Below are positions 1-55,596 of a DNA stretch of 64,000 bases, in pieces. The first letter of the stretch is position 1. Each line of letters opens with the position of its first letter. Source of the stretch: Apteryx mantelli (Eukaryota; Chordata; Aves; Apterygiformes; Apterygidae); contig NC_089994.1 of the NCBI RefSeq assembly GCF_036417845.1, forward strand, positions 18,494,001 through 18,558,000. Reading direction: 5' to 3'. A program made the position numbers and the translations under genes. The notes under the pieces are model-generated. The model did no database searches. It saw only the letters and a list, made by a program, of their open reading frames with translations, and was not told the DNA's origin.

Positions 1-108
1 TATCTCCAGGCATAAATATACGTGATGTTGTTTGTACTTTTGAAAACACTTAAAAATCTTCTTAATTTTCTCATAAACTCAAGAACTCTCAAGGAACTCA
101 TCACTTAC

Positions 109-24100: not shown

Positions 24101-25508
24101 CAGACTAGGAAAATGTATGTTTGGAGTTTTGTTTTTTTGTTGGTTTTTCTTCTCCTTTTTTAAGCCCCACTTTACAAAGGTTGTTATGCCCTCCCCCATG
24201 TCACACCTTCTGACTATTCAAATTTTATCTGCATTAAAGTGTTTTAACTCATTTCAGCTTATACATAAGTGAGCATATTGAAAGAACCAGAACAAGACAT
24301 AACTAATGAAAATAACAAAAATTACATACATTTGAGAGGACAACAAACATGGGCAACTCCTTAAAAAAGTATAATGGACGATTTTAAATACAAGAACAGC
24401 AGAAATACAGAGAATCAGAAAATGAGATACAGCTGACTTTTTAAAAAACATGATTTTTTCCAATAAGGTTCCAAACTATGTTTTGTTTTTTTATTTAAGA
24501 GTTCAAGCACCCTGAGCTACAACATGCTCAAGATTTCTTAGGTGCACCCTCCTTTTCTGCCCAGAAATCTTACCCAGACAGATAACGTGCATTTCAGTAT
24601 CCAGAACACACACTGCTCAACAAAAGTTTGCAACCCAAGCCTCCGCTAGAGGTTTTAGAAGAGCCTTTCTTTAGAAGTTGGGGATACCTGCAGTTACGGA
24701 GCGCAGAGTGTCATTCATTTAACAGATCCAAAGCTAAACCCTCCCCGACCCTTAAAATAACTGGCGGCAAATCCATCCTCGCAAGGCCCCTCACAAGCGG
24801 TCACTGCCCCCCTCCAGCGAGGCATCTCCGGCACACCCCCCCCCGCCGGCTCTTCGCTCCGCGACTGCAAGGTTTCTTTAGCTAAGTCCTGTCCCTCTCT
24901 CCAAGCTGAGGAGCTGGGAAGTTGATCGTAAATAGACGGTGCCCCTTTTTCCCGCAAACTCCTGCAAAACCTGACCCTTCCTCTTCGCATTCAAAATCAG
25001 CCTACCAAGGGGAGACCCAGAACTGTTGGCAAGCACCTGGAAGAAGAGGCGAGGGGAAAATAACGCCTTCAACGCTGCGGTAAGCCAGAGACACGGCTGC
25101 GTGCAGCGTCGCCGCGGTTTAAACGGGTCCTTGGGGACAAGAACCGACGCGAAACGCTCCGACAGGGAGCCCAAAGCGGCACAGCCCGCGGGGAGCCCGC
25201 GCCCCCCGCCCCGGGCCCCGGCCGTGAGGGGCGGCCCGGCACCGCCTGCCGCGGCCGGCTCCGGGGCGGCCCGCACTGACAGGAGCCCGCGGCGGCGCCG
25301 GGCCCGGCCCAACCCGCCGCCCCTCACGGCCGCCACCTGCCCGCGGCGCCCCGCGGAGGGGGCGGGGAGGCGCCGCTGCCCGGGCCGAGGGGAAGGGGGA
25401 TGGGCTCGCCCGGGCGCGGGGGTCCCTGCCCCTCGTCCGCCGCCGCCGCCGCCTACCCTGGGCGCTGCAGTCGGCGCAGACCTCGCTGCTCCGCAGCCGC
25501 TTCGACAT
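109..25508 (-). CDS. GIT2: GIT2, ARF GTPase-activating scaffold protein (3' end beyond the window)
   Basis: The protein stimulates GTP hydrolysis on Arf proteins and scaffolds PIX, PAK and paxillin at adhesions and endosomes. Coding exons with GT/AG borders in one continuous frame are 25457-25508, 20002-20135, 19350-19462, 17961-18066, 17488-17574, 17208-17338, 15982-16076, 15152-15197, 13501-13552, 12761-12833, 12314-12411, 11879-11990, 10674-10816, 9718-9867, 5798-6046, 4278-4367 (cassette), 413-495 and 109-291. The start [14 protein letters not shown] matches the family. The ArfGAP zinc finger has C11, C14, C31 and C34 (CX2CX16CX2C) with the Arg finger at R39. Three ankyrin repeats follow (about residues 135-235), then the Spa-homology region (about 255-370), a coiled coil (about 425-475) and a Ser-rich linker. 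The visible part encodes about 666 aa, ending at a split codon after ENKHD; the C-terminal paxillin-binding domain is off the left edge. The gene is divergent from ANKRD13A. Identity is very secure; GIT1 is excluded by the closer match to GIT2 throughout. Confidence 0.97.
1240..1745. other. GC-richer island inside a GIT2 intron, origin unknown
   Basis: This stretch is visibly richer in G and C than the AT-rich intron around it. I found no GIT2 exon, no known repeat family and no convincing splice-bounded reading frame in it. It could be a remnant of an old mobile element or simply unconstrained sequence. Confidence 0.3.
4278..4367 (-). CDS. GIT2: GIT2 alternatively spliced cassette exon
   Basis: This 90-bp, phase-0 exon lies inside the 5.3-kb intron between 5798 and 495. 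It is preceded by an AG acceptor and encodes 30 residues beginning [18 protein letters not shown], which matches the Ser-rich segment of the long human GIT2 isoform. Its donor reads GTTAAG rather than GTAAGT or GTGAGT, so it is weaker than the other donors of this gene. Skipping it keeps the frame, because the exons on both sides also meet at phase 0. I infer a long isoform with it and a shorter one without it. Confidence 0.88.
7458..7498. repeat. (TA)n microsatellite
   Basis: An imperfect TA dinucleotide run lies in the GIT2 intron upstream of the 5798-6046 exon. It is a probable length-variable marker with no sign of function. Confidence 0.85.
14362..14470 (+). repeat. MIR/CORE-SINE-like remnant
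   Basis: The stretch contains the order of words typical of the 3' half of MIR elements: CAAGTCATTTTCTCTGTGCC, then a CAGCTTTCTTCTCTGTG-like segment, GCAATGAGG and AATGAAAATATAAAGCAT. The element is heavily diverged and lies in a GIT2 intron. I identify it by resemblance only; an alignment to MIR1_Amn-type consensus sequences would decide. Confidence 0.4.
20220..20510 (+). repeat. possible MIR/CORE-SINE-like remnant
   Basis: The segment starts with a GGAGCCCTGGATCC-type stretch, includes ATGAGCTTGGAAATGTTAAA (compare the MIR phrase 'tgtgaccttgggcaagtca') and ends with GTGAAATTAGGATAATAC followed by GAAGTGCTTGTATACC. That order resembles an amniote MIR, interrupted in the middle. It lies in GIT2 intron 1, close to the CR1 copy. 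Confidence 0.3.
20926..21590 (-). mobile_element. CR1 non-LTR retrotransposon, 5'-truncated 3' end
   Basis: This is the 3' portion of a CR1 LINE in GIT2 intron 1, in the same orientation as GIT2. On the minus strand, 21588 to about 21001 is an uninterrupted reading frame of 195 codons that reads as the C-terminal part of the CR1 reverse-transcriptase protein; key words are [27 protein letters not shown] and [20 protein letters not shown] short 3' tail follows and ends in CAACCATTCTGTGATT, the usual CR1 terminus. The 5' end is cut near 21590, as is normal for CR1 copies. It lacks an endonuclease and most of the RT domain, so it cannot move by itself. Confidence 0.93.
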
Positions 25509-25701
25509 GGCGCGGCGGCACCGGGCGCTTCCTGCCGCTCTAACGGGTCCCCGCCAGCAGCCCCCGCCAGGCGGCCGAGCCGAGCCGAGCCGAGCGCGCA
25601 GGCGCACGGCAGCGCCGCCCGCTCCGCGATTCACCAAGCAGCGTACGCCAGCGCCGGGCAGCGCTCCGCAAGCGAAAGAAGGCGGCTCGCGGCGGCCCTA
25701 A

Positions 25702-27065: not shown

Positions 27066-27253
27066 AAGGGTCTGCAGGGGGTCGTGGCCTGGGGAGTTTG
27101 TGAGATCTCCTCCCCTCCCTCCCCAAAAGAAGGTGGGTGTCAGGAGCGACAAGAAGCTTGAGGAGTTTGGGGCCTCCAAAATCAAGGAGGGTGGGGGGGG
27201 AAACAGTGAGGGTAGGCGCCCTGCTTCCCCCCCCGCTCCTGCAGGTGTGTGGC

Positions 27254-30200
27254 ATGATGAGTTCCCCTGGTAGGGCCGTCGGCAAGTTTCCCCTGCACGT
27301 CCTGGTCTGGAATAATGACTACAGGCGGCTGGACGAGGAGCTGCAAGATAAGGTAACCCGGACATGTAACCAGCAACCCGTCAGTAGAGTCTTTCAGGCT
27401 TGGTGGTCCTGAAGACCCTGTGCTATCCTGCAGGGCTTAATGGACCTTACTTACCGCCTTTCCGGGGAGACGTAACCCTGTTTGTGCACCCGGGTCTGTT
27501 TGCCAGGCCTGCGCGATGGTTATCCTTCTTTAGCTAGTTAATTGTGGCTGAGAGAGTGCTATAGGAAGATGTAGAGAGATATTTTTTGTTATGTAAGGTA
27601 TTCCTTAAACTTTGAGTTCTTACCTGTAAAACTATGCTCAGAGCATTCAGATGTGGTTTTCAAAATGGCTCTATAGAAAGTATTAGGACTGATTGAAACA
27701 GATCAGAAAGAGCAGATATGATGGATGTTAAAATTTTCTGTGCCAGAAAAGCAATAAATACTGCTTACCTTAGTGGGAAATCAACATGCAGCAAAGGTGG
27801 CTGCTGCTGCCAAAGATTAAACTGGCCACTATCTTGCCGAGGACGAACAGTTCTTATGGCTTCTTTGCTGTCCAGGACTGCAGGGGCAGCAGTTTTATAC
27901 TTGCTGGAATGTTTTCAGCATCTCTGTTAAAAAATGGATCATTGTTTCATGCTGTAGAGTAGAAAAATACAAAGCCAGCCCTCTTTGGGAACAACCAAGG
28001 GAGAAATAGTAATGACGTAAGGAGATGGTCTGAAAATCTGCAGCAAACATCCTCCTTGCTGAGATGCTGTGGGAAAACACTGGCATCCATTAGTATGGAG
28101 TATGGAGTACACTTTGCAGAAGCAGAGCATATTAATTACATTATGGCTGACACCACAAGGATATGATCCGAAGATGAGCTGTGCCACCTTCTAACTAGCG
28201 ATTACCATTTGCAGTTCTAACAGTACACCACGATTTACTAATGCTTGCTTAGAGCATGCTCCTGTTCTTTTTAGATGAATCTTTGGAATGCAGCTACTAG
28301 TTATCAAATTCATGTGATCTTAGTCCCTACTTAACAAAATGCTTAATTTGAATGACATGTTGTTTCTGTGTATTTATTTCTATTTCAATAATGTTCTCAT
28401 CCTTGAAAGTTTGTAATTAAACAGGGATAATTCTGCTCTTTGTTAGTCTAAGACTGCAGTTTGGTTAGCACGTACATCTGTGAAGTGCTGCTTCTTACCT
28501 CAAAACGTTTCACATTGTAAGGAAATGAGCAACATGTTAAGACAGAATATGTTTGTCTCTCATTTCCTTTATCTGCTTTTAAATAACTTTTTTTTAAATT
28601 TTAAGTATTCCAAAGATATGCTGCCCCCTGCTTCCTTGGGATAAGCTTCTTGCTTTTGAAGGGGTGGGTGAGAGAATCAAAAGAAACTTGCCAGCTGCAC
28701 TTGGTGTGGCAAACGATGAGTAGAATGTATGGTTACCTGTTAACAACATCAAAGCAAATTGGGAGGGATTTTTTTTTTTTTTAAGGGTCCATTACCTGTC
28801 AGTATGGTGGACATTGGAGCTGTAGAAAGTGGGGAAGTTAATTAGTATTTGACCACAGAAGTGAAAAGAGAATGCTTTCAATGAAGCTTTCCCAACTCTG
28901 TGTGTGATCTTTCAAACCTGATGCTGTCAGATAACTGGGTTAACTTGCATAATAACTTTCCTTTCTTATTCTGCTATTGACTTTCCCCTTTTCCTTTAGT
29001 TATAGATGCTCTTCTGTTTCAAATCTCTAAGCTAATAGTGAAAAATATGTAAGGTATGAGTATGTTGTGCTTGCATGTTTTGGATATTTATGCCTGTGTA
29101 GTTACCTTTTTTTTTCTTTCTTTTTTTTTTCTTGTGACTTGCATAATGCACTCACTCTTCATTGTGCTGTGTGTGTCAGTCAAACGGATGCTTTGTAAAT
29201 TACCATTTGCTTCCATACTTTCAAAAAGTGCTATACAAAATGTGTTGTATGGCCTGTCGCTCTTTCTTTTCCTTTTTTTTTCTTTTTTTTTCTTTTTGAT
29301 TTAATGTGCCATATAATACCATTCTACCCTCTAGTGATCTCTCAGGCTGTTGACTGTCATGGTGCAAAACACAAAGAGTAGAACTCCTATCTTCTCCTGA
29401 AAGAGACTGTTTCTGAAGGGAGACAGAAGGGGAAGTAATGTCGGAGTTCTTGTTGATGCTTCTCATTTCTTTTCCTGTAATGTTTTACAGTGATATCTGT
29501 TCTTATCCTGTTAGATTTATGGGCCCTGTTCTGCTTCTCTTTTATTTCAGTAGGGAAGTAAGATCGCACTGTAAGGAGTGCAGAAGGGCAATACAGTAGT
29601 GTTATGAAAGCTGAGTTGACTAGGTGTCACAAACTGATATATGGTAATACTGACTCCTGTTACATTATTACTGACAAGCTTTGTTTATACGAACTCTCCT
29701 CAGTGCACTCTGATTAATTGCATTTGATAGAACAACTAGAGTATTATTTCTATCTTGGATACTCAACAGGATGTTGATCAACGTGATCCGCGAGGCCGGA
29801 CCTTGTTGCACCTTGCTGTTTCCTTGGGTTATATAGAATCTGCCAAAGTCCTCCTTCAACACAAGGCAGATGTGACCAAAGAAAATGCGCAGGGATGGAC
29901 AGGTAAAGATAACTTGAAAAAAAGTTAAACTGTATGTTAATATTTTTCAATTGTAAATGTTGTATTTTTGACTGCATTTTATATTGCGTATTTTGTTTGA
30001 AAACCACCTGAAACCAGCTTGTGTCTTGATTTCTTTCAGTTTTACATGAGGCTGTCAGTACAGGAGATCCAGAGATGGTACATATGATTTTGCAGCATCG
30101 GGACTATCAGCAAACATCTATGACGCTTGGAGGAGTTCCTGAATTACTCCAAAAGATTAACGAGGTAATTATTTAGTTGAATCAGAATTACAGTCTGGAG

Positions 30201-33200
30201 CAAGAGGTTCAAAGTAGTTCAGTTAAGTAAACTGAAACCAGATGAACAGAGATTAGAACCCAGCTGATCTGAAGTTGGATGATTTTGTTCTTCATTTCAA
30301 TTTGTACGTCTCATAGACCTGTGGGAGATGATGGAGATTTTTCCTTGACTACGCTTGGTTATGAACTCCAGCATTAGAGGCTGAATCTTGAAGCTGTTAC
30401 TGCTTCTGTAGTAAAAAAGTGAAGAATAGCTCAGTAGAAATGTCTTTTATATCTCTTGGTTTCAATTTCATTGTTTTAAGGTTTGTTTGTCATGTCTCAA
30501 GTTCTGTGTGGTTTTTGTGTTTTTTTTTTTTTTTAAATCTGAAACGTAATGAGAAATGCTACACTGAATGTTTGGTTAAAACTATTTGTTTCACAAAGTA
30601 TTTTCTTCTTTCAGACTCCTGACTTTTATGTGGAAATGAAATGGGAATTTACTAGCTGGGGTAAGTATCTTGATCGTTGTTACCTCTTCTAAATGGTAAA
30701 CAGAACGACCTGCTTGTGTACAACTGCCACAAAAGATGTGCAGAGAAATATGCTTATTAGAATCTTCCTTGCTTTCCCCCAGTATACATATCTTCACCCC
30801 TCAAAATATTCAGAGCTTTGAGGATTTGATTTAACCTCTTATTTTTTGGTTGCATAAATTGTTCTTTTAATGGAAACTGCAACCATTGTCAGAGTTGTTG
30901 AAGACTTTCCTCGGAGCTTTGTTTACCTGACTCTGGGTACAGGGTGACTAAGACAGTGATACACGCCTCATATATTGGTGCACAGTCTACTCTAGAAACC
31001 CCTGCTCTTCTTTTAAATGAATGAATGCTGGGCCTTACAGCTGACTTCATTTTCCAAACAGCTAACTATTAAACTGCTAGGAGACTGTTTTATCTCATTT
31101 CACATCTTTTAGTCTGGACAAATGTCTTATTCCTTTTCATGTTCATCTTTAAATTAAAATCAGTGTTTTTAGCCCCTAAGTTCATCATTCTTAAAGGTAG
31201 AGAGGATCAATATTGTCTCCTTTGGAATAATGATTGTAGTACTTTATTGAGCAATTCCTATACCAGGAATATAGCTTCTGGCTGAGTTCAGACTTCCTGT
31301 GCACTTAGTCTCAGAGTATTTTATACTTTTATATTTTTCTTTTATAGTCCCACTTGTTTCTAGAGTGTGTCCAAGTGATGTCTGCCGCATCTGGAAAAGT
31401 GGTGCCAAGCTACGAGTGGATATCACATTACTGGGTTTTGAAAATATGAGCTGGGAGAGAGGAAGACGTAGTTTAATTTTCAAGGGAGAAGGTAAATATT
31501 TTAGCATGTCTGAATCATTGATCACTAAATACATTGTAAGCCCCAATGAGAAATACCAGTTCTACTCAAGAAGACCTGTTGAGAATGTGTACTTAGCTTT
31601 CAACAAAAATTTTCTACCTATCTTTCATGACCCGTAGAGTCACTGTTTTGGGGTTTAACATAAGGGCTTGACTTCTTTGCTTTGAGAAGACTTGGGGTCA
31701 AAATATGGGAATAAGGCTAAAATTTGATTTCAATCTCTTCTTTACTGGCTCCCCTTCTATTCTGCCCTCACCCCCCCCCCAAAAAAAAAAACAAAACAAC
31801 AACAACAACAACAAAAAACTGATTTGGAGATGTATCTGAGACTATCTCAGCTGACTACAAAATACAATGAATTAACTTCCAGCCTCATTTTCATATAGAC
31901 TATATATACCCTGTTCATTTTTTCCTTCTTGAATACTATTGGTAAGTTTGCAGATGATGAGATATATCATTCCAACAGATACTGGAGGCTGGGCAGAGCT
32001 AATTGAGATCAATCATGATGATAAGTTTGTTACAACGGAGCGTTTTGAGATTTCCCAACACATGAAGCGTTTGACGTTGGGATCTATGACACCGAAAAGA
32101 AAAGATGTGGAAAGACGCCTTACGTCTCCAATTATTAATACGTGCCTTGATACAAAAAATATTGCTTTTGAAAGGTAAGGTATGAAGTTTCTCATAGTAA
32201 ATAGATTCTGCAAGATTATGGTTGATCATACTTGCAATTAAGCTTTAAAGACAAACTCTCAAAGCCCTGTTAATAAAAATATTATGTCTGAAATTACTTT
32301 AAACTTCACATGCAGTTAAAGAAACTTTGCTTGGTCAGCTTACTGCTGTTGCTTGGCAAAAAGTTTCCAGTTGAACTGATTTGCATGAAGCTTTTGGATC
32401 ATCATATTAGTGGGGTCAGTGATAACCCCTCGTGTTACAAGTATGTAGTTCACCCAAATCTGTATGTGTAGTGTCAAAACTAATGGACAGACTGGGCATT
32501 GAGGATCCCGCAAGGGAATTCACAGGTTTTATGTTAGCTAAATGAGTTATATCTCACATTAATACTTTTAATAAAAATGCTTGTATAGTATCTCTTCTCA
32601 TAGTACTTTCTACTGTATTTGTCTTCCTTGTTTATTAATGTTTGTTTAATCTAGGTATCCGTCAGCTTAGTCAAAGGTGCTGAAACAAGCCTTTTTATTA
32701 CGCTCCTTTTGGAGTGTTCTGAAACACAGTAAAACACCCCTATGATCAGGTCATATTGTAAACGAGAGGCGCTTTCAAAGTGAGATATGTAATTCTGTCA
32801 TTTTTCTCCGGAATATTTAAGCACTCTTTCAAAGCTTCCAAAACTTAGTCCCTGTGAGGTTCAGTGAGCCTTAGTAAAGGTGGCAACTATACATTCAGAA
32901 ACTTGTCCCAGGGTTTCCTAGACAAGTGATCCTACCAACCACTTCCCCAAATTTCAGTGACAGGTTACTTTTGAAATTAAACTGTGCATGTTAAAAGCTG
33001 CTCTGGCCAGGCTGTCAGACAAAATTCAGTAAGTTTTTAGGTTCTCCTCCTCCTCTGTGGCTCAGGCATCCAAATCCCAACCTAAAATCTCTCACTGAGC
33101 CTCTGCGCTTTGGCCATGGACTGAATAAGAACAGAAACAGCATGGCCTCCTCAGCCCTCTCTTGGTACGTGTGTGTGGGGACAGACTGGCTTGTGCTTTT

Positions 33201-36200
33201 GTCTGGGGTTGCTAATCAAATAAGCTATTGTTTGTTCAAAGCTTTTTGAGAAAAATGGGCTGGGGACTGTGTAGAAATGCAACTGTGTAGACGCTTGTGG
33301 TGTTCACTTTTTGTCAGAACCACATCTGGATTCTGGGTATGGAGGACAGAGAAAGCAGAAGGTGTAAATGGTTATGAAGCAAAGGTAAAATCTCTTCTGT
33401 ACAACTAAGAAGTCTTATAGCTAACTGAAGTGTGATTGTGTTATGCCTTTATTTCCTGAATATCCCAGGTTCTAAATTTCCCCTGAGAGCTTTCTTGTTT
33501 TGCCAGCAGAACTGGGCAGGAGTGAGGAACTTCAAGGGTGCCAGCCTTATGGGAGTGATGGTGCCTGTGTGTAAGAATGTCAGCAGGGGCTTTTGGGGAG
33601 AGAAAGAATCAAAGCACTTCAGGAGAAATGGGACAAAAGGTTCAGCATAACCAGTAGAACTCACTTCTATCCAAGAACTAGAACTGAACTCATTCTGGAG
33701 TGCTGGCATCTTTCACTGTTTAGAAGATGAGGAGCCCATTGATGAAGTGCCTTGAGCTCTCACAAATGGCAGGACTGCAAGAAAGTGATGTAACTCATGG
33801 CAGCAGGAGGCCATTATCAACTCAAGTAAAAGACTGCTGGTAAACTAAAGACCCTGCCCCTGCTGATGAGCCAGGCAGTGGCGTTGATTGATTCCGTGTG
33901 ACAGTGGTTTTTTGGTTTTCTGTTTCACTTTTTTAGAAGTATTTTTGAAGATGGCTTTTACAGCCTTAGTGTTTTAGGAATTTTAAGTTAAGAATTGCAA
34001 GAATTAACTTTCCTAATTAATAAGTCTCTGTTTACTCCAGGTTTTGGAATTTGTGCAGTAAACAGCACTTTTTTTTATAGTTTCATTTAACAGTAAAATT
34101 AATGCTGAATAGCTTCATAGATTTATATGAAGACTTCTCTCATAAGACTGCAGGACAGTTCAGTTGGACACTGGAGTTCATTAGTGTTCCTGTGTAATTA
34201 AACCATCCAGTAAATTTCATTTGGAAAATCTTATCAATGACCTTTTGTTTAGAAATAGCATAGTCTGGCTTTTCTTCCCCGTTCTCTCTCATAAAATCTC
34301 TGCCCAGGTGGGGAGTCTTCAGCAAGACAGGAAATGCTTGTCTAGTTTTGAAGTTGGTTCAGACTGAAGAAAAACAAAAGTCTGTTTAAAAGTGCATAAA
34401 TCTACTTCCCAGGAAACTGTTTGAAAAGCTGAATTCTGTTGCCGTTGAAATCAATGGCCAAACTCCTTTGCTTTTTTCTTGGTGTACAATGCTTGAAAAA
34501 TTAATGCTGTCTAGAGATACTTTGTCATATGATTTGTAGGTTGCCTTATTTTATCAATTTGCCCAGCAGGTGGCCGTGTAGTTTCAGCCTTAGCACAGGA
34601 CTGTCAAGAAAATAGTATGTAGCATTTCTGTTGACAAGCAAAGTGAATAGAAAAGTCACTGAAGTGCAGTGTTTCATGTTGATCACCAATATGTTTAAGA
34701 TACTTGTCATAAGAAGATCAATACTTCTTAATCCTGTCTTGTTTTAGATTTGTGTTCATGGTCTTTTATTACATTTAAAGAGAAGGCTGTCTTTTAACCT
34801 GTGTTGTACCTTTTTTTTTTTTTTTTAGGTGTACACTGCAAACAATGTGAATGTAGTCACAAAGATACGAACGGAACATTTAACAGAAGAGGAGAAGAAA
34901 AGATATAAAGGTAATTGTCCTATAGGATAGATGGAATTAAGTAGAGCCTCTCTGACACCTTCTCTGTGTGGCTGCGGAAGTACTAGGCAGATAAAGTGAA
35001 ATACTTTGCTTGCCGATATTGCCCTGCTTTAGCTTGCATTTTGTGACTGAGGTGACTTGTTACTTGACTCCTACCATATGAATGAGCCATTATTTATTCT
35101 AGCTGTATCTGGAGGAAAGAAAAGCCCTTCAAAACTATTGAAAGCTTTAAAAGTCTGCACTTCTTTCCATGCTTTCAGCATCTCTGTTTCCTGTTCTGGA
35201 ACATATTTGTGCCTTTACTTCATTTTTTGCCATGACTACAAGATTCATGTGGGTTTTGTTTGTTTGGGCTTTTTGTTTCTTTTTGGTTCCCTAATTCTTT
35301 GTAGTATTTAAATTAGAGTAAAGGGAGATCAGGCAATAACCTTGCATGGTAACCTGCCCTTCATTGATCTACCTTGGGGCCCTGGAGGGAGTCACTATGA
35401 AAAATAAAGTTATTTGATGATAGAAACCACTGAAAACCTTCTCCTCTATTCTATGTCTTGTAACCATTTTATTCTGTCACCTTTTGGTCCTGGTCTTTTC
35501 TGCCCAAGTTTATGGGAAACTTGGGCTCTTCCCTGAATGTGAGCTGCCCCCTTTACTTTGGGTTAGAAGCCTTGTTTGTTAGACTGGTGTGTACATGAAT
35601 TTTAGTGCTATTCAATAATAATAGATAACTTTTTTTTTCCTCCTATTGTCTGAAGCTGACAGGAACCCCCTGGAATCCTTTCTGGGTACAGTGGAGCATG
35701 AGTATGGTGCTCAGGTGAGTGTCTTTGCTGTTTTCATAACAGGTCACTACAGTGCAGAGGTCTGTGTCAATAGAAGTTGTGTTTGCTAATGTATTCTATG
35801 CCCTTTTCATGGAAACCTTCAGAAGGAAGCAACTGCTACATATAAATGAACAGTTGAGGGTTAAAAACAAACAAAAACATCCTCAGGGAAAATTTAAGCC
35901 TCAATACAAAAATTGCTGCTGAACTGAAGAAATGGGAAACAATTCACAAAGTGAGAGGTGGGCATTAGCAGTGGTGGTGAATTTGAGCAAGCGCAGTTCT
36001 TAGGTGCATCCAACCATAATTTGGGAAAAAATGTCCACAGGTAAAGAGCCACAGACCGGCAGAGGCCTTGGTTGGGAGACGGTGTTAGTGTAGCGATCAT
36101 CAGACAAATGACAAGAGAGACAGAAATGACACAGTAGCGTGCTGCTCTCCAGCAACTCAGAAAAGTTGTGTCCTTGGCTGTTCTGAAATGTGTGTTGACA

Positions 36201-39200
36201 ATGATTGCAATATCGCCTCAGAAAAGACTCCCTTGAATCTGTATATATTAAGTACAGTAGATAATAGATTTGCCAACTGCTGGCTCTGTATCAAGATAGC
36301 ACTGTAGTTGTTAACATGGATTTAGAGCTCAGTAGAAAGTACTTGTTTGGGTCTGACTTTTAAATGTGTGTGTATGTGTGTATGGCTACATATCACTGGT
36401 GACTAAAATAGAGGAGGAGTTACTCCACAAGAGGTAACTTAGTTTCTTGTAGTAGCCGCTGCCTATTCATTCTCTACTTTTTTGATCTTTTTTCTTTTTT
36501 TTCCTTATAGGATCTAACAACAGAGTTTGCCACAATTAACAATCCTACTGCTATTACTCTGGAGGAATATTTTAATCCAGAGTTTGAATTGAAAGATAGA
36601 GACATAGGAAGACCGAAAGAAGTCACCATTAGAACACAGAAGTGAGAAATGCTCTTAACTGTTTCCTGTTTTAATGTCTTTCAAATGTGTCATTTCCCAG
36701 TCATCTAATCTTTAGAAAACAATTTTGTACAAATATCTGATGAAATTCCCCCCCCCCTTTTTCTAAAATAAATGAATCAAAAGAGGTATCTTGAACTATT
36801 CAGCCATACTCTAATTCTTCTTGTACTAAGTGAACAAAAACAGTTGGAGTGATGCTGTAACTTTCTAGAAGTCCTACCCTTACCTATTGTAAGGTATTAA
36901 TAACTTCTCTTATACATTGCCTTTAGTCTGACCAGAATGCAATTCAGTTTCTCAGTGCAGTAACTCTTCTGTCTCTTTGAGATGTATGAAGCAGGGGATG
37001 ATGCTATGTATTTTGCTTTGTATCTGTTCCAAAACTGTAAACGTAGAATGCTTTTATGCAACTTGATCTTACAGATTTAAAGCAACCTTGTGGATGAGTG
37101 AAGAGTTTCCTTTGTCTCTTATGGAACAAGTCACTCCAATCATTGATCTGATGGCCAGAACTAGTGCTCATTTTGCTAGACTTAGGGATTTCATCACTTT
37201 GGAATTTCCACCAGGATTTCCTGTCAAAATTGGTAATGTTCAGCATTTTTTATTTTAACATCTTCATTTCCATTCTGTTGGTGTTTGCAACACATTAGTT
37301 TATAAACTGGAACAAAAAGCTAACAAGGTTTTTGTAAATGTCATCTTCACCATCTCTAGAAGTGAGAACCCAGCTATACATTATCTTGTGAGCTTGGGAT
37401 CATTAAATCCAAATTCTGAAGGACCAGCAGAGTAATGTAATTTTAAAGACAATATCATTTCAGTAAGAATTAGCTGTTTGCTAGCCTTTTCCTTTTGTCT
37501 CCAATGTCTTAAATTATTAAAATCTTATGTTAAAATCTGAGAAGATTTAGAAATAGTGAGACTGACCAAGTGCAACTTCTTGGTGAAGTGGGTTGTGATT
37601 TGCTTTGTGGTTATGGGATGGTGTTTATGAAATATATTCAGTAAACCTGTACGGGTTTGATGTGGCTGCAAGTGTGGAAGTGAATGACAGAATTCTCTTT
37701 TTTTATAGAAATCTTGTACTCTTTCCTATAGAAATTCCCTTATTTCATGTGCTGAATGCCCGAATTACTTTTGAAAATGTTAATGGCTGCAGGACAGCTG
37801 ACAAACCATCATCGCAAATCGGTGGAGGTGCACAGTGTGAGACATCGGGTAAGGAGTGGAAAGTTGCAGTGGCTGCATCTTTTTATATTTCTGTCAGTGG
37901 AATCCACAAAAGAAAGAGACAGGTTAACTACAGAGAATGCAAAATTCACAGATGAGAGGAAGCTGCAATGCATGACAAAGCTGATCTGGAGTGTGTCATA
38001 TTGGTCATATCAACCCATTCTGCCCTTTCAGAGCTTGCTCAAATGACTAAGCTGAGCTCTAGCAAGCTTTACAAAGTGTTTTAGCATCTAAATTATGGTG
38101 CATTAGATCACAGTGCTGCTGCTAGTGAGAAAGCTACTGCTTTGGGAAGTGGAATAGAAAAGTGCTGTGACAGATCAGGCTGCGTGCCTTTCCAGGAGAG
38201 AGGGAATTATGTTCGAGTTAGATGTTTGTGACTGCACGTATCCAGTCATACTCCATCCTATGAGCTGTTACAGACCCGGTCATTAGGAATATCTTCACTG
38301 AAGTCTGAGACACTCCAGTATTTGTTTTGCAGCCTTGCTTTTCTTTTTGTCGGAGTTCAGCCACCTTTGCTCTCTGCTGCACATCGACTTTACTTGTACA
38401 ACTTGTCAGCATCCTAAAGGCTGTGTTCTTTCACTGCTGTGCTTGGTTGCCATATAAGTCTTTCAAAGCCTCTGGGTATGTGTAGCCAGGTGGTTTATCA
38501 AAGTTTTTGGAGTTAATTTAATTGTGCGAAAACATTTATCAGAGTTTTTTGAGCAACAATTGTAAAAATACACTATGCCATGTTTGTAACTATATTTGGC
38601 TTCTACAGGTGCTACTTTTGAGGTTGACCAGTCAGTGTTTGAGATCCCTAAATCTTACCATGTCCAAGATGATGGCAGGAATATACATGTGCAGGATGAA
38701 GATAACGAGATTATGCAATTTGCTATTCAGCAGAGTTTGTTGGAATCTAGTGGAAATAAAGTAAGTGTGGTGTAATCCACTCAGTGCAGATCTAACAGTC
38801 TTGCAAGGACTATGGAGAGATAGTTGCACCTCTAAATTGCACCAATGTATGGAAAAAGTTATGCAGGACCTCTTTTTCCTAAGAACCTCAAAGGAGAAAA
38901 ATATAGTAATAAATTTAAAAAAGTAGAGAGAGAGTAACTTAAGAGTTACCTTTCACTGAGTTGCATTGCAAGTCTGCTAACTGCTGTGGAATTTTTCCCC
39001 TTTCACCATTTCTAGGAAATGGGAGTGCATTCCAACGGAGCAGTTGCATATTCACAGGACTTCAATTTACAGTATCAGAGGTAACTTTTTTTTTTCTTCC
39101 ATGTCAAGCCATGCTGTGATAAAGCAAAATACTTCCAATAGTAGCATGAAGGAATTGTGAGGGTTTTTTTGTCCGTTCAGGTATAGATGCACAGAACTTG

Positions 39201-40075
39201 AGGCCTCTTTTCCTGTTGTTCTTATAGTTTTTATTGTTTCAAGAAATAAGAACCTCAAATTAGGCCTCCCTGGTTTACATAACATGACCCTTTCGCTCAG
39301 CTGTAGGACTGGAAGACACATGTAACTGAGATTCTTTGCTCAACAAAATAAGCACAATTCTTAGAACTGTGAATTTGGTCCCTGTAAGTATAATGTTTAT
39401 TAGGTACTGAACACGTCAGGGTAGCTCTTATTTAATTTCAAAATCATTATGTAATCCTTACAAACTTGGAACATATTCAATGGACCCCTGAGAATATGCT
39501 GTGGGGTTGTCCTGTAGCTAAGCGCAAAGAAATGTTTGTGCACACAAATAACTGCGTCCTCCTGGTGCTTTGGGTACATGGGAATGATGGCACCTTTAAA
39601 CAAGGTGAGGATCCTTTCAGAAGCACACTGAAAATTTAACTGTTAGTATTTTAGTGTGTATAAAAGATTCTGAGGAACCTTCAAAGAACAGGTTTTATCT
39701 TGGGAACTTTATGGCTGTTAGAACACGTTGCACTCTCACCTTGAGAATTGCTTTCTTCCCTTTAGGAAAAGGATTCAAATTTGCAATTGGAAAACAGTTG
39801 CTAAGGAGGATTATTGCAGGAGAAGTGATATAGAATCTGTGCCTCTTGTTTCTTGAAGCTGTTTTTCTTTCTTCAGGGCACTGCAGGAGAGCTTTCTAAC
39901 AAGCGCAGGTAATTCACACTGCAGTACTCCTAATGAGCCTTCCAGTTTTGAAAAAGACTTGCAGCTTGCTATGGAGTTGTCTGTCCGAGAGCAGGAGGAG
40001 CGGGAGAAGCAACGTCGTGAAGAGGAAGACGCAGAGCTTCAGCAAGTTCTACAGCTTTCTCTTGTGGAAAAATAA
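27254..40075 (+). CDS. ANKRD13A: ANKRD13A, ankyrin-repeat and UIM protein of endocytosis
   Basis: The protein binds Lys63-linked ubiquitin on activated receptors such as EGFR at the plasma membrane and controls their internalisation. Fifteen coding exons with GT/AG borders give a 590-aa frame, the same length as human: 27254-27352, 29770-29902, 30040-30164, 30615-30660, 31348-31491, 31979-32174, 33318-33384, 34829-34910, 35656-35714, 36511-36641, 37075-37232, 37732-37848, 38609-38760, 39016-39080 and 39877-40075. Ankyrin repeats span about residues 10-110 ([21 protein letters not shown] and the following exon). The central family domain covers about 130-430. Ubiquitin-interacting motifs follow near 483-500 ([16 protein letters not shown]) and about 522-590, the last at the extreme C-terminus ([14 protein letters not shown]). 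The start is ATG 27254 or 27257; the second aligns with the human MSS start and gives 589 aa. No break or missing segment is seen. Confidence 0.97.
31778..31817. repeat. (AAC)n-type microsatellite
   Basis: A C run and an A run are followed by a CAA/AAC trinucleotide run in the ANKRD13A intron before the 31979 exon. It is a simple repeat only. Confidence 0.8.
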
Positions 40076-45040: not shown

Positions 45041-45527
45041 CTACCGCCGCCGCAGGGGCTTGTAGACGCAGAGGGCCATGAGGACCATGGCGAGCAGCAG
45101 GGCGCTGAGGACGCTGCCCATGAGCACTGCGGGGCGAGACGGCGCCCGGTCAGCGGCCCACGGCGCCCGGTCCTGCGCCCCGCGGGGCCCCCGCTCCACA
45201 GGGCCCCAAACCGCGGAATGGGCTAAAAAAGGCCCCCTCCCTCCCCCCCCTTTTCAACCCCTTTTTTAATAACACAAGGCTGTTTTAAGCCCTTTAATAC
45301 ATCCAAACGCCTTCACGACGCAAATCGCCGATAACTACCGGGCGCCGCGGGGGTCACGCCGAGGGGGGCCCAGGCGTCCGGGGGGGGGGGGGCCCAGGCG
45401 TCCGGGGGGGCCGCTGCTTACCCAGGTTCTGCTTCTGCAGCACGGCGTAGGGCCGGCTCCGCGCCGCCGCGCCGGGGCCCAGCACGGCCGCCGCCAGCGC
45501 CCAGCCCCGCACCGCCGCCATCGCCAT
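45041..45527 (-). CDS. C12orf76: C12orf76 orthologue, small single-pass membrane protein
   Basis: Two coding exons (45422-45527 and 45041-45126) joined across a GT/AG intron encode 63 aa. The N-terminus looks like a signal peptide (AAVRGWALAAAVLGPGAAA). A short segment PYAVLQKQNLVLMG follows, then a hydrophobic helix (about residues 37-56) and a basic tail CVYKPLRRR. The PYAVL, QNLVLMG and CVYKP words match my recollection of human C12orf76, and the gene sits in the same place next to ANKRD13A. The predicted topology is type I with a very short cytosolic tail; no function is known to me. Two ATG codons compete: 45527 (MAMAAV) and 45521, the second with a better Kozak context. The GC-rich exons and repeat-rich flanks make this gene easy to miss. 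Confidence 0.88.
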
Positions 45528-45592: not shown

Positions 45593-46156
45593 GCCTCTTC
45601 CTCCTCCTCCTCCTCCTCCTCCTCCTCTTCCTGCCGGCCCGCCCCGCTCCCTCCCCTGCTCCCCCTCCGCCTTCCCTCCCTCCTCGCCCTTCCTCCCCCA
45701 GCTCCCTCCCCCCTCCCAGAGCCCCCTTCCTTTTCCTTCCTTCCTTGTTTCCCTCCCCTCCCTTGTCGCCTTTCCCATTCCCTCCTTCCATCCTGTTTCC
45801 CTCCCCTCTCTCTTACTCCTTTTCCTCTTTCCCTCCCTTCCCTATTTCCCTCGTCTCTCCCTGATCCCTTCCCTCGTGTTTTCCCCTTTCCATCCTTCCT
45901 TCCTGCTTCCCTGTCCCCCTTCCCTCGTTCTTCCCTTCCCCATTCCCTCACTGCTCCTTTTCCCCCTTCCTTGTTTTTCCCTTCCCTATTCCCTCACCTC
46001 TCCCAGATCCCTTCCCTCGCTCTCCCCTTCCCTATTCCCTTGCTTTTCCCCTATTCCCTTCCATCATTCTTCCCTTCCCTGTTCCCTCACTTTTCCCCTA
46101 TTCCCTTCCCTTGCTCTTCCCTCCCCTATTCCCTCGCCTCTCCTGGATCCCTTTCC
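45593..46156. repeat. homopyrimidine/homopurine tract upstream of C12orf76
   Basis: The plus strand is almost only C and T for about 500 bp from 45648, with imperfect units such as CTTCCCTATTCCCTC. A pure CTC run lies at 45598-45628. It starts about 70 bp upstream of the C12orf76 start codon and so occupies its promoter or 5'UTR. Such tracts can form triplex H-DNA, and they are hard to sequence. Confidence 0.9.
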
Positions 46157-47783: not shown

Positions 47784-50700
47784 CTAAAGCAGAGGCGACA
47801 GGCGCATCGCCTCCACCTGCGGGTCTCGTGCCGCTTTCTCGGGCCGAATGCAGACGGCGAGGCGCTGCGGGACGGGAGACGCCGAGAAGAAGGGCAGCGG
47901 GTTACCTGCCGGCACGGGCGGCCGGGTGCCGTGCGCAGGAGACGCTGCTGCCTCCCGTCCTGCTCTTCCCCCAGCTGCATCCCTGGACGTGCCGGGCTGG
48001 CGCAGCCGGAGCGGGGCTGGGGGCCGTGCAAGCCGTCGGTGGCACGGCGCGGACGCCGCATGCCTGTACCCCCCCCCGTCAGCGTGGGGAGCCGCGGGGA
48101 GGAGGCGTCCCACGAAGGGGCACGGAGGAGCGGTGACGTCTGGGGACAGGTTTGTGCCTCTCGCCTGCCTATGAGCGGCACCGATCTCGCCCCGCTGTCT
48201 TCTGGCCCAGCCCAAATAACAGCTTTTGAAATACGGCTTAAAAGGATTAGGCCGTCGAGCCGGGCTCCTCTGCGCCCTCTTGAAACCAGCTCCCCAGCAA
48301 TGATTGAATCGCCGCGGGAAGGACAGTGCAGCGGGAGGAGCCCCGGCTCCCTCCCCGCAGCACCGGAGCCTTGAGCACCGGCCTCGCGCTGCACCGGGCC
48401 ACCGCCGCCGGCCAGCTCCCGCTCCAGTTCCTGCTCCCGCTCCCGCTCCTGCTCCCATTCCTGCTCCCGCAGCGCGGCCCCCGGCGCCTCACCTGCTTGA
48501 GAGACCCGGGCGTCCCCGCCAGCTTGCACACCATGTAGAAGGGGATGCAGACGAAGGACGAGGCTCCTACGAGGGAGCCCACCGAGATGCTCCACGCCGG
48601 GTACTGGTAGTCGAAGAGCGCGAGAGGCGGCTGCTCCAGCAGAGAGCTGGCGATGATGAACTGTGAGCGAGCGGAGAGGGCTGCATTAGGGAAGGACGAC
48701 AGCGGGACATCGCACACCGTCACACACGCGCACGCGTGCAGGGCTGGAGCATGGATGTACAGCCGGCAAAACCTCTGCACAAGCAGAGCCCGCTGGGGAG
48801 GCTCGCGCGTCCCCGGCAGAACAGCCCCGCTCGCTCCCCAAAGACAGCAGATCAGCTGCAACGTCTCCCCAGCCCTGTTACAAATATGGGCTCATCCCGC
48901 GGCTTAACAGTGTTCACATCCCTCTGCCATCGCTTCTAACTGCTAAAGGCGAACGTGGCTTTTGCAGTGACGTTTTCCAGACTGGCACCGCTCGCGCCGG
49001 TTTGCTCCTGCAGTTCCTCATCTGGCAAACCGCAAAGGCGATGGCCTGCAAAGGCTGCACGTCTCCGCGGCGAGATGAAACCATTTGCTGTCTACTTTGA
49101 TTATAATGCTTCTCTCTTAATAACCTAGGCGAAGCGCTTCGAGCCGTAATTAATGCCCACAAGGCCTCTCCTCCTGCAAATCCGGCGAGATCAGACCCCT
49201 GTGCATCTCGCAGGTGGCAGCCTTTGAAGCGCGGGCAGGGCTGGCGGCTCGGAGGCGGTGGGTGCAGCCGGGCGCGCGGGGCTGCAGCGGTGTTCGGGGC
49301 CGGGCGAGCGTGGGGCGCCGCCATCCTCGGCGTCAGCAGCTCCCTTTCCCGAGGAGGGTGAAACGGGCCGCATCCAGTGCACGGTGAGCACGCCCGGCTG
49401 CCAGCTCCTGGCTGTGCCCGGAGCGCAGCTGCCAAAGAGGCTGGAAAACGCACTTTTAACTCCCTGTCTTTGAGAAATGCCCTGTCCCGGGCTGTGGGCA
49501 GCTTGGCATGTCTCCTAGTTAATTTAGGAGCTTCCCATCGATTTTGTGTTGCAGAAAACAGTGGGGATGTGTGTTTCCCAAACAGCAGCCCTGGGCAACC
49601 CCCTTGCTCGTCATTTAAAGGGAAATTGGTGGCTTGACTTGTCCCTTGGGATATCGATACTCACTGCTAAAAAGGCAGGGCTGATGGCGACCCAGCAAAC
49701 CTTCCAGAACATCCCCGGGGCAAAGCCCAGCATGGCTTCCACGTCGTTCGAGAACCGCTGGATCCCTGCCGGAGGAAGAGCCGTCACCGCCCGGAGCGGC
49801 CGAGCCCCGCGCGCGCTGCGCTTGCGGGGGGATTCGCGCGCTCGGAAACGCACTGCCCCGAGTCCCTCATCCCGCCGTGCCGGGAGTCGCGCGTGCGCTC
49901 CCGCACCGCTGTGCCCCTGCGTCCCCTGCCGTTCCCTGGCGTGCGTGAGGCTGAACGCCTGTGCCAGCGCCCGCAGGATGGTTTTCAGGTGTGTGGTGGG
50001 CGCTTAATAACGGTTTCTTACCATAAAACCAGGACACAGCTATTGCTTCCAGCAGCACCACTGCCAGGATGGAGCAGCCGGCGCCGAACTCCTCCAGGAG
50101 CTTCACCACGTACGCGCCGCCCTGGAAGGACACGGGTGAGGTGGCAGCTCGCCCCGGCGGCGCGCTGCGCCCCTCTTGCTCCCAACACGTGGCTTTTTTG
50201 CCAAGGTTCGGATTCCCCGGGAGGCCGGGAGGCTCGGCCGGGGGGGGACAGAGAAGGCTCCGCTCCATGGAGTAGCTCCCCCAGCCCCGCGGCCACTGGG
50301 GAGGGAGTCTCCTGCATCCCTCGCGCCTCGGCCGTGTCCCCAGGCTCCGCTACGGGGACGGACCTGGCTGGCGAAGGAGCACGGCCACCTCCGAGGGCTT
50401 CCCGAGCGTGGGGTGAGTCAGTGGAGAGCTGCCCACAGACCCTGTTGGGGCGTTTAGCGGGTCTCTGGGAAAACCTGCTCCCAGAGTTGTTAGAGGAACG
50501 GATAAACGCCCGGCGAGGGGTGAGGCGGAGCGTGTGCGGCCTGCCGGTGCCGTACTCACGTAGGTGAGGGTGGTCAGAGAGCCCAGGAAGCACACTGCGA
50601 TGAGACCGAGCACGAAGAGCTCCCTGCGCGGCGCGAGGACGTGCGGGTACTCGTCCATCACGGCCGTGATCACCGCTTCCAAGCCCCCGAACTGCAACGG

Positions 50701-53700
50701 GAGCGCCGGCGTGAGGCAGAGCAAGAAGGCGCCGGGCCGGTCCTGCTCTCGAGGAGATCTGCCATGGCCCCGCGGTCCTCTCCATCCCGGCGCCCGGTCA
50801 GCCGCTGCCTCCTGCCGGCTTCGCCCGGCCCCCACCCGGAGCAGCCTCTTCCCGGGGTGTCGGGGCTCCCCTGCACTTGCCCGCGGACGGGAAAAGAGCA
50901 GCGAATCTTATCGGCGGAGCGCGGGGAGGCTGGTAAAATGCCGGGGCGCTTTGGGGAAAGCCGCAGGGCTGCTGTTGCTCCCGCGTTCCCGCGCGGCGCT
51001 GAGCGGCTCTGGAGCCGGAGCAACGCCGGGCGGCGGATGGAGAGCCGGGGCTGAGCGCTCGCTGCCTCCCCGCGCTGGAGCTGAGCTGGGCACGTCCCAT
51101 CCCCTCGCTCCGGGATCGCCGTCACCTCCTAGGGGCTCCGCGAGCGGCCAGCCGGATGAGGCGCGTTAGAGACGAGCAGGTTGTGCTCCGTCCGTGCCCG
51201 CGCGGGCTGGAGGGGCCAGGCCAGCTGCTGCCTTTCCCCGCGTCCTGAGGGCCCCGTTGTTCCCAGCAGGGATGCAGCCCGGAGCAGCCGGCTGTGCCCG
51301 CTGTGGTTTGCAGAGGCGCCTACCGTGCTGTCCAGCCCCAGCGTTATCACCATGAGGAAGAACATGATGGCGAAGAAGGTGGATCCCACCATGGTGGCGA
51401 TCGCTTCCGGGTAGGTGATAAAAAGGAGGCTCGGCCCTAGGAGGGAAGGTGGGTTCATTTTGCCTTTCCGCTGGCTGCTCCGGCGTGAGCCCAGGTGGCG
51501 GCAGTGGTGGGAACGGTGTTGGCGTCAGGAAGGAGAGGTCCCAAAGCTGCGGTGGCGGCCGCGCCGGCTGGGACGCGCTCGCAGAGCCGGGGCGGGTCGG
51601 CCCCGCGGGACCGGGAGCAGCCGGGGCGCTGACGCCGGAGGGAGGCGAACCTTTGTCTTTGGCCACGTCCTCCACCTCCACGTCCCTCATCTCGGCCATG
51701 TAGCCCAGCACGGTGAAGATGACGAAGCCCGAGAGGAAGCTGGTGAGGCAGTTCACCGCGCTGGTGACCAGCGCATCCCTGGAAAGCAGACGGGGGGTGG
51801 GGGGAAGGTGTCCCGCAATGCCATCGCCTACGGAGACCTTCCCGCGAGCTCGGCTCTCGCCGGCGCAGCCTGGGCGCCCCGGGGACCCCGCGGCTGCATC
51901 CCACCGCGGCTCGGCCGCGCCGCTCACCGGTAGCAGTTGTTGTGGAAAGGGTTGTAACTGGCCAGAGCGAGAAGGACGCCGAATCCGGGGCCCAAGGAGA
52001 AGAAAATCTGCGCGGCAGCGTCGACCCAGACCTGGCAGGGAAGCAAGAGGCAGGCTGGCGCCGGGACGGGCTCGGCAATGCGGAGACGGGCTCCGTGTCG
52101 GCACGCGCTGCCAAAGCTCCGCTCCTGCCTGGGGCTCCCGCGCCTCCCATTCCCCCCGGAAGCGTCCCGGGAGCAGGCAGGAGGGGAGCAGCTCTCCTCC
52201 CTGGGGCTGTGCAGTGGCGGGACCGGGCGCTGGCGTCCTCGTCCGACGCACGCGGAGGGCAGAAGGAAGCGCGGGGGTGCCCGGAGCCCCCTTTAATGAG
52301 AATTCCCAAGCGCCGCACTGCTAATTACCCACGGGAAGCGTATTGTCAGGCCGCGGCACAAATAAAGCCCGGCGGCAAATGAGATGGGTGATTCGGTTAT
52401 GGATTTGCATTTCCAAGAGCTTGTCCAGGGTGTCTCGTTTCTGCAGGAACAGGGAAGCGGCGGCGGCGGGGGCAGCCCCGGGGGCACGGCGGGCGCGCGG
52501 CGCGGCACTCACCGCAGTGCTCAGGAGCTTGCCCCAGTCCGGGCGCAGGTAGAAGACGACCCCTCTCCACGCGCCGGGCAGGGTGGCCCCGCGGACCAGG
52601 AGGACAAGGAGGACGACGTAGGGCAGCGTGGCCGTCACCCACACCACCTGCGGCGGAGGCGGGCGTCAGCAGTGCCGCCGGCACGGCCGGGCGCCGCGGC
52701 CCCGGGGGGTTTGAGGGGTGCCGGCAAGGGGCGCCAAGGGGGCAATATCCCTTATTTAACTCGCCGAGGCAGCCAGGCACACACCGTGCATGGCCGGAAC
52801 GATGGAGAGGAGCCGCTGGGTGCCCGGTCGCATGGCCCCCGTGCTCAGGTCCATGCCGTGCAGGGCTGTGCCGGGGCTCCTTACCTTCCCCGAGGTTTTC
52901 ACTCCTTTCCACAGGCTGAAGTAGACGACGGTGAAGATGAGGAAGAGGCAGAGGAGCAGCTGCCAGCGGATCCCCCCCACGTCGTACAGACCGCTGGACT
53001 TCTGGATCTCCAGGACCTTCCTCCTGTGGCCCGAGAGCCCCGTGCCGGGGAGGGGGACTCAGGGCGGTGCAGCACCACCCGGGACGGGGCTCAGCACCGG
53101 CTCGCCACGGACACGGCCCCGGCACCGCGGCACGCGCCCATCTCCTGCAGCATCGCGGAAGGGGACCGCGAAGCTCCCTGGGAGGCCGTGGTGCATCGCC
53201 GTACCTGCTCCCAGCGCTGCTGGTCCCGCTCCTCGACGCAGACCCAAGCGCATCCTCGGGGACTTGCCCCGGCTCAGTCGCATCGTCTGCTTACGCGCAC
53301 TTACGTGTAAAACTCCTCGGCGGGGGAGCGGGAGGAGTTGGTCCAGGTGACGTTGCTGCCCCCGAAGTAGCTGGTGCAGCTGGGCGTGTTCCAGGGGTTG
53401 TCGCAGCTCGTCCAGGGCAGGGTGCCCGAGAAGGACGAGTAGAAGTAGTAGAGAGCCCAGGCGATGATGGTGTTGTAGTAGAAGGAGACGTAGAGGCCGA
53501 TGATGCAAATGGCAAAGCCAACGCCTGGGGGAAGAGGAGGGCAGGTCCCCGCCAGCCCCTGGCAGCGGCCACGTCATTCCCCCCGTCCCGCCGGTCTCCT
53601 ACCTTTAAAGATGGGACAGATGCGTTTCCAGATGGGGATGGCGCCGGTCCCGTGGAACTGCCCCAGTGCCAGCTCCATGTAGAAGAGCGGCACCCCGCCG

Positions 53701-55596
53701 AAAACGGCCATCAGCGTGTAGGGGATGAGGAAGGCTCCTGCGGGGCAGGGACAGCACGGCGGTGAGCATCGCGCCCAGCCGCCGCCGGGCCGAGCGGCCC
53801 TGCTCCGATGGCTGCGGATCGTTAGCTGGGATCGCACGGCCCGACCGGCACAAGCGGCAGCACGAGCGGTGAGTGGCAGTAGGGGGCGACACCAAGCACC
53901 GCTCAGGTCTGGAAGAGCTCGGCAAAAATCCCCCTGAGCACGCGTTGCCACCCTGAGCTATAAATATTAATGCTGTCGTCTGCATTATTCATAACGATGG
54001 CGCCTGCACCGGGGCTACGCCGGCACCCACGGGGCTGTTCAGGCGGGAACCGCTCTCTGCGCTCTGCTGGGATTAGTTAATTCAGCCCCCGCGGCTCCTC
54101 CGAGCCCCTTCCTCGAGGACCGGGCTGGCACTGGTCTATCCCAGCCGCGTGCACGTGGGGTTTTCCTTCGGAGGACGGCGGGGAGCTGCCAGAGCCCCTG
54201 CGAGAGGGAAACTCCCTGCTCCTGCACGGCAGGGCTGTGTCTGGGCCGGGATGCTGCAGGCAGCTGGGAATGCTGTGGAGCAGCTGGGGATGCCGTGGGC
54301 AGCCGGGGATGTTGCGGGCAGCCGGGGATGCCGCAGGCAGCCGGGGAGGCCGTGGGACGGGCGCTGGGGGAGGCGCGCGGTGTGGTGCTGCGCTGCGCTC
54401 CCGTTCAGCAGCCCTCGAGGACGTCTCTGCCGTGGACGCGTCCAGCTGAGCCCAGAGCCCCCGTGCTGCCCGGAGCTGCTCTCCTCGTCCCTCTCTTTTC
54501 GGGCTGTTCCTTGCCTTTCCGAGCGATGCTATTTGGACGGGGTGCTTTCTGCACGCCGGTTTGCACGGCACGGTTAAAACTGCCTAAACCACCCCAGCGA
54601 AGAGCGGCTGAAGTTCACTTGCAGGCGCCCAGGAGTAAATCACAGATCACTCGGGGTGCTTCAGCCTGGGCGCCCGGCATCCACGTTTTAGCCTCAGGTA
54701 TGGCACTAATTATTTTCTTCTAATTTTCTCAGTCACTAAGAGGATGTTACCCGAATGCCTACGACTTTGGCAATTAAATCCACTGCGTTTCTGCAAACAG
54801 CACAAAATTTTCCTTCCTTTTCAGTCGTTCTCTGTAAAGGTTTTTGTGTTCTCGTCCATTGAAAACAGTGCATTTAGCTCTCACTTCCTGCAGGTTTTTC
54901 CTTAGTGGAGCTAATGTGTCTTGACTTGCTGTCGCTCGCCCCTGCCAGGAGGGAGCTCGCCGAGGGGCGCAGGGTGCAGCGCAGGGTGCCGGGCTGTGCC
55001 TGCCCAGGTTGTCCTAAAGCACGAGCGCCCGGAAGGGCTGCTCCCCAAAGTCTCCAGATCCCAAAGCGTACGAACCTCCCACCCCAAATTTACAGCTTAA
55101 TCGCTACATTCAGTTTGAACCTTGTTAGTTTTCTCTTTTTAATCTCAAAACTATTAACCATACAACGCGTGCTAGCCATCCCATAGCTGCAAGCTGACAT
55201 CTCTAATCCCACCAGGAAAGAAGTGAATGGAAGAGGGTTTTCAATGGAAAAAGACACAAGACAGAAAAGAGACAGATGTCAGCAGAAGTTGGGTCGCTCT
55301 CTGAAACCGCCCTCGCCGGAGAGGGGCAGCTACAGAGACGAACAAAGGAGAGAAACAGCAAGTTTGCCAGGTCTGAAAGATGAAAAACAAATTTCTCTTC
55401 TCGAAAAGAAGACTTAAATAATCCTAGCTGTGTCCTTACCCCCTCCGTTTTGATAGCAGATGTAAGGGAACCGCCAAACGTTGCCCAGATCTACAGCGAA
55501 TCCGATTACGGACAGGAGGAAATCCATCTTTTTGCTCCACTTGTCCCTGGGGCGGGTCGGGGGGCCCGGGGGCGCCGGGGAGGGCTGCTCCGCCAT
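47784..55596 (-). CDS. SLC6A4-like: SLC6 monoamine transporter, SERT (SLC6A4) paralogue
   Basis: Na+/Cl- coupled monoamine uptake at the plasma membrane is the expected role. Thirteen coding exons in one open frame encode 570 aa: 55440-55596, 53603-53737, 53305-53524, 52885-53023, 52513-52647, 51928-52031, 51651-51778, 51324-51436, 50560-50691, 50022-50121, 49665-49765, 48493-48660 and 47784-47864. Twelve membrane helices are evident. TM1 reads [20 protein letters not shown], with Asp36 matching the amine-binding Asp98 of human SERT. Other SERT words are [71 protein letters not shown] and [12 protein letters not shown]. The EL2 disulfide pair is C138/C147, and NVTW is a glycosylation site. 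From TM1 to TM12 it aligns with human SERT without a gap, offset 62. The N-tail is only about 20 aa and the C-tail ends MRLSPLL. Start ATG 55596 has G at -3 and lies just after a good splice acceptor. DAT and NET match less well. Confidence 0.93.
48414..48470. repeat. GCTCCC/GCTCCT hexamer repeat
   Basis: About nine imperfect hexamers lie in the last intron of the SLC6A4-like gene, about 20 bp downstream (in transcript sense) of the donor of exon 48493-48660. Confidence 0.8.
54248..54357. repeat. short minisatellite, about 20-bp unit, five copies
   Basis: Units of the form GCAGCCGGGGATGCCGYRGG repeat about five times with substitutions. The array lies in the first coding intron of the SLC6A4-like gene. 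Confidence 0.8.

Follow-up and report, generated by a model that had tools for sequence, protein, structure and literature searches.

We report that a 64,000-nucleotide window of the Apteryx mantelli genome (C17:18494001-18558000, contig NC_089994.1; the genome searched comprises 1.50 Gb in 408 contigs) contains, beside GIT2 and ANKRD13A, a second serotonin transporter (SERT) gene, here called SERTb. SERTb is very probably SLC6A4B, an early-vertebrate SERT duplicate that has been kept here and lost toward eutherians, and we infer its product to be a Na+/Cl- serotonin symporter. SLC6A4B was described by Lovell et al. 2015 (PMC4894405; this and the other cited papers are quoted from the excerpts available) in fish, amphibians, reptiles, birds and metatherians, with none in eutherians, as a likely ancestral vertebrate duplicate, and a 2023 review (PMC10394247, citing Abe et al. 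2013) links a variable number tandem repeat of the chicken SERT paralogue slc6a4b to impulsive behaviour. The second SERT gene and its origin have thus been known since 2015. Both SERTb and the published SLC6A4B are second SERTs besides SLC6A4A, and no difference between them was found in the excerpts available. SERTb has two of the traits expected of SLC6A4B, being a second SERT beside canonical SLC6A4 in one genome and older than the split between the A. mantelli lineage and mammals; the case for its orthology to the published gene is built on clade, age and gene order.

SERTb occupies 55596..47784 on the minus strand, from start codon to stop codon, in 13 coding exons. The coding sequence of 1713 nucleotides specifies 570 residues without internal stops, exon phases are compatible throughout and all 12 introns are bounded by GT..AG. 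Exon 1 (55440..55596) carries the start codon and transmembrane helix (TM) 1, followed by exon 2 (53603..53737), exon 3 with the TM3 pocket residues and extracellular loop 2 (EL2; 53305..53524), exon 4 (52885..53023), exon 5 (52513..52647), exon 6 with TM6 (51928..52031), exon 7 (51651..51778), exon 8 with TM8 and the positions of S438 and T439 (51324..51436), exon 9 (50560..50691), exon 10 with TM10 and the positions of T497A and V501I (50022..50121), exon 11 (49665..49765), exon 12 (48493..48660) and exon 13 with a diverged C-terminus and the stop codon (47784..47864); residues were placed in exons 3, 8 and 10 by alignment to human SERT and other proteins.

Family and clade are clear from several directions. 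The Pfam domain SNF (PF00209) covers residues 17-536 of SERTb with 741.7 bits (E = 6e-223), placing it in SLC6, and a search of solved structures returns SERT chains first (892 bits, E = 1.5e-267, residues 1-528 aligned to 1-528), with NET chains (683 bits) and then DAT below them; a short EL2 fragment used as query gives the same outcome. Against human SERT, 528 positions are paired without gaps and 380 are identical (72.0%), while SERTb is 55-59% identical to the human and A. mantelli proteins of NET (SLC6A2) or DAT (SLC6A3) type. A tree of five proteins joins it with human SERT, apart from NET, DAT and Drosophila DAT, with the alternatives rejected, and a tree of seven proteins unites SERTb and SLC6A4 in a clade without NET and DAT (100/100 support). 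A scan of the genome contig collection found no relative.

In the A. mantelli genome itself, a search with the SERTb protein (76 of 183 candidates scored) identified, besides the window gene, another SERT on contig C22, with 51-81% identity per exon. This gene lies at about 10020.4-10033.3 kb on the minus strand; exons 2-12, sought at the lengths they have in SERTb, were found with AG/GT flanks, its first exon continues upstream in an open frame resembling the human one, and its last exon is two codons shorter, with a C-terminus that we take to be close to that of human SERT. It has Asp169 and Val172, which are also the two changes reported in the pocket of chicken SERT, a protein given as 82% identical to human SERT (PMC4817154). 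The canonical SLC6A4 proteins, i.e. human SERT and C22 SERT, are 72-74% identical to SERTb and differ from it in locus and in their N- and C-termini.

The SERTb split predates the separation of the A. mantelli lineage and mammals. In the seven-protein tree, built on 515 common columns, C22 SERT and human SERT form a pair with SERTb outside it (SH-like approximate likelihood ratio test/ultrafast bootstrap 100/100), and a grouping of SERTb with human SERT is rejected (approximately unbiased (AU) test p = 3e-4, Shimodaira-Hasegawa (SH) test p = 4e-4). Over the same columns SERTb is 73.6% identical to C22 SERT and 72.4% to human SERT, and therefore about as diverged from SLC6A4 as NET is from DAT (human proteins, 73.2%).

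The surroundings of the two genes, as determined by genome search, match in part. C22 SLC6A4 shares its contig with GIT (C22:9822172-9824213, minus strand), ANKRD13 (C22:9835114-9836856, plus), a coronin (C22:9843405, minus) and a BLMH-type peptidase (C22:10049437-10070319, minus). The C17 segment consists of a coronin (C17:18044327, minus, 0.45 Mb from the window), GIT2 (minus), ANKRD13A (plus) and SERTb (minus), so that GIT, ANKRD13 and SERT are identical in order and orientation on the two contigs. A third segment, C4:699631-792452, holds ANKRD13 (699631-702422) and a coronin (792261), 90 kb apart. We take the copies to be GIT1, ANKRD13B, CORO6, CORO1C, CORO1B and ANKRD13D, and the human gene order is likewise assumed. 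The pattern on C17, C22 and C4 is as expected of segments from early vertebrate genome duplication. We propose that an early vertebrate duplication of a GIT-ANKRD13-coronin-SERT block left SLC6A4B with the GIT2-ANKRD13A segment, and that this copy was probably kept in the A. mantelli lineage and lost on the line leading to eutherian mammals.

A preliminary description of the window had anticipated much of this, namely an intact 13-exon SLC6 gene of the SERT type, a further SERT copy in the same lineage, which it proposed to look for beside BLMH and GIT1, and a shared origin of both loci by vertebrate duplication. The two outcomes that it named as fatal to its view, a grouping inside the SLC6A4 of its own lineage and the lack of any other SLC6A4 in the genome, were both checked and did not occur. 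The first now has exact coordinates, a 570-residue frame, GT..AG introns and SERT chains as best matches, the second was located on C22, and the third is supported by the position of SERTb outside the two SLC6A4 proteins together with the common GIT-ANKRD13-SERT arrangement. Its statement that both copies were kept here also stands, with one each on C17 and C22; the loss it placed on the human line is published as eutherian, metatherians retaining SLC6A4B (PMC4894405).

Several observations weigh against the assignment. The tree and identities draw on one genome and seven proteins, none of them from fish, amphibians or lamprey. On C22 the coronin lies between ANKRD13 and SERT, but on C17 it lies beyond GIT2 as seen from SERTb, and no SERT match was seen near the C4 pair among the matches listed in the SERTb search. 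A second query from the window GIT gene scored a GIT1 chain (61 bits) above a GIT2 chain (48 bits); the GIT2 chain, 6jmt, stops short of the coiled coil that this query covers. Within SERTb, Ser takes the place of human N208, the first glycosylation site of EL2, the exon 7 donor, gttcgc, is judged weak, and only 16 residues precede the equivalent of human SERT residue 79, where an upstream in-frame ATG would yield 72 instead.

The weak donor and short N-terminus, together with the diverged C-terminus in exon 13, the least certain exon, might be read as signs of an early vertebrate duplicate that is now decaying or untranslated in A. mantelli, as might a SERTb tip branch (0.18) longer than those of C22 SERT (0.07) and human SERT (0.10). 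However, that branch is shorter than that of DAT (0.28), 570 codons run without stop or frameshift and all listed ion-site residues are retained, and we consider decay improbable. There is far less room for a recent lineage-specific duplication of the A. mantelli SLC6A4, which would account for the common family and clade: SERTb and C22 SERT are 73.6% identical, yet C22 SERT and human SERT 86.4%, and the seven-protein tree rules out a recent local copy, a grouping of SERTb with C22 SERT being rejected at AU p = 4e-12 and SH p = 2e-4. That SERTb is instead the relocated, sole SLC6A4 orthologue of the genome, a view for which no point in favour was found, is ruled out to the same degree by the SLC6A4 on C22, which has GIT, ANKRD13 and BLMH-type genes on its contig and bears the Asp169 and Val172 reported for chicken SERT (PMC4817154).

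As SLC6A4B, SERTb would operate as a plasma-membrane symporter taking up serotonin with Na+ and Cl-. The positions that we take to form the Na1, Na2 and Cl- sites, as well as the amine-binding Asp98, are all identical to human SERT in SERTb, and it is from their conservation that serotonin transport appears its likely activity, as judged from sequence. These ligands and Asp98 are common to SERT, NET and DAT.

The substrate and drug pocket departs from human SERT, with Phe95, Gly169, Val172, Ser173, Gly441, Ala497, Ile501 and Ser556. Val172 is common to SERTb and C22 SLC6A4, whereas SERTb is unlike both human and C22 SERT at 95, 169, 173, 174, 441, 497, 501 and 556. At five of these positions (Y95F, A441G, T497A, V501I and F556S) it has the NET/DAT residue where the two SLC6A4 proteins agree on another. 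The pocket is thus mixed: NET/DAT-like at 95, 174, 441, 497, 501 and 556, where SERTb equals A. mantelli NET, human NET and human DAT (Drosophila DAT matches at all but 556), and SERT-like at 439, 443, 490, 493 and 494, where it shares T439, L443, K490, E493 and E494 with canonical SLC6A4. At 131 columns human NET and DAT agree with each other and not with human SERT; there SERTb sides with SERT at 70 and with NET/DAT at 34, and has a residue of neither kind at 27. A stricter set, in which the two SLC6A4 proteins have one residue in common and the two NETs and DAT another, gives 60, 24 and 14 of 98 columns, respectively. NET/DAT-like residues occupy 6 of 9 columns of what we take to be the central site vs 28 of 122 elsewhere (Fisher p = 0.0095 in a post hoc test); two of the six, 170 and 172, are changed in C22 SLC6A4 as well.

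Of the 34 columns at which SERTb is NET/DAT-like, Drosophila DAT carries the same residue in 25 and that of human SERT in 5, so that retained ancestral pocket states are likelier than convergence, as far as residue comparisons can tell. The broader proposal, that SLC6A4B kept a NET/DAT-like monoamine pocket (Phe95, Gly441, Ala497, Ile501, Ser556) that was changed in canonical vertebrate SLC6A4, is tentative, and we hold it to be rather doubtful. If true, birds would have a second serotonin uptake route, poorly blocked by citalopram-type drugs, and SLC6A4B might also take up some catecholamine, in a lineage from which DAT has been lost; speaking against catecholamine uptake, zebra finch SERT (copy unspecified) was reported in the raphe and absent from midbrain dopamine nuclei in the text available (Lovell et al., PMC4894405). 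Drosophila SERT too has Phe95 and Ile501 (PMC4817154), so neither position can serve to define SERTs in general.

Altered inhibitor sensitivity of SERTb is predicted. It differs from human SERT at 6 of the 15 paroxetine-site positions named in PMC4817154, a site at which chicken SERT has two differences and Drosophila SERT seven. In human SERT, Y95F lowers citalopram potency, raises that of mazindol and hardly changes that of paroxetine (PMC4817154); since position 95 is Phe in SERTb, citalopram block is predicted to be weaker, and mazindol block stronger, than for the other copy. In a docking study, Tyr95, Ile172 and Thr497 of the human SERT pocket are described as non-conserved (PMC8015229). 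The literature searches returned no account of the SLC6A4B drug pocket, which is weak evidence as no search was aimed exactly there and most subscription journals were not covered; as far as these searches show, the pocket difference has been less discussed than the gene itself. It offers a direct test of ancestral states. SLC6A4B represents a clean case of an early vertebrate gene pair cut to one copy in eutherian mammals, and work on avian, reptilian and fish serotonin uptake, or on antidepressant residues in these animals, should reckon with two SERTs whose drug pockets may differ.

In the same genome, a NET-type gene on contig C10 was recovered as 12 exon pieces, 73-100% identical to human NET. 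With human DAT as query (83 matches listed, 78 of 184 candidates scored), the best exon set was this NET gene and, at that sensitivity, no DAT locus distinct from it came to light, which fits the DAT loss reported for birds and reptiles in the excerpts available (Lovell et al., PMC4894405). The NET gene (L076, C10:20471001-20481000, locus bases 6839-6943) has Tyr in the substrate-site motif QIFYSLG where human NET has Phe; this Tyr aligns with Phe335 of human SERT, in a genome that showed no DAT.

The neighbouring genes of the window were recognised in pieces and their models are partial. GIT2 (108..25697, minus strand; first exon placed by eye) shows GIT1_C, GIT_SHD and ArfGap above the Pfam cut-offs, and the sole match of its ArfGAP exons at E up to 1e-10 is the GIT2 chain 6jmt. 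In the genome search the GIT2 query matched exons on C17 at 89-97% identity and on C22 at 71-88%, which identifies the window gene as GIT2 and the one on C22 as a paralogue of it. ANKRD13A (27104..40072, plus strand) has a first piece placed by eye, over which no Pfam match exceeds the cut-off, and further pieces with ankyrin and UIM above it; ANKRD13_C reaches 24.9 against a cut-off of 25 in the window and passes at C17:18525413-18531231 in the genome search. The name ANKRD13A is based on its position next to GIT2. Between the last recognised open frame of ANKRD13A, which stops at 40072, and the SERTb stop codon lie 7.7 kb; the preliminary description gave about 8 kb. Ten open reading frames (one at 21.0-21.6 kb, one at 45.0-45.3 kb and eight of the many at 57.6-64.0 kb) gave no Pfam match at E up to 0.1; C12orf76 was accordingly not confirmed in the 70-residue frame at 45044-45253, nor IFT81 in the eight frames of 57.6-64.0 kb. 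The frame at 21004-21615, of 204 residues, presumably resembles the end of a CR1-type retroelement.

Two tandem repeats accompany the gene. Intron 1 of SERTb contains a 19/38-bp repeat at 54248..54347, found by repeat search, and chicken slc6a4b likewise has an intronic variable repeat (Abe et al. 2013, in PMC10394247). Beyond the 3' end of SERTb, a 47-bp pyrimidine-rich repeat is present in 7.3 copies at 45797-46143.

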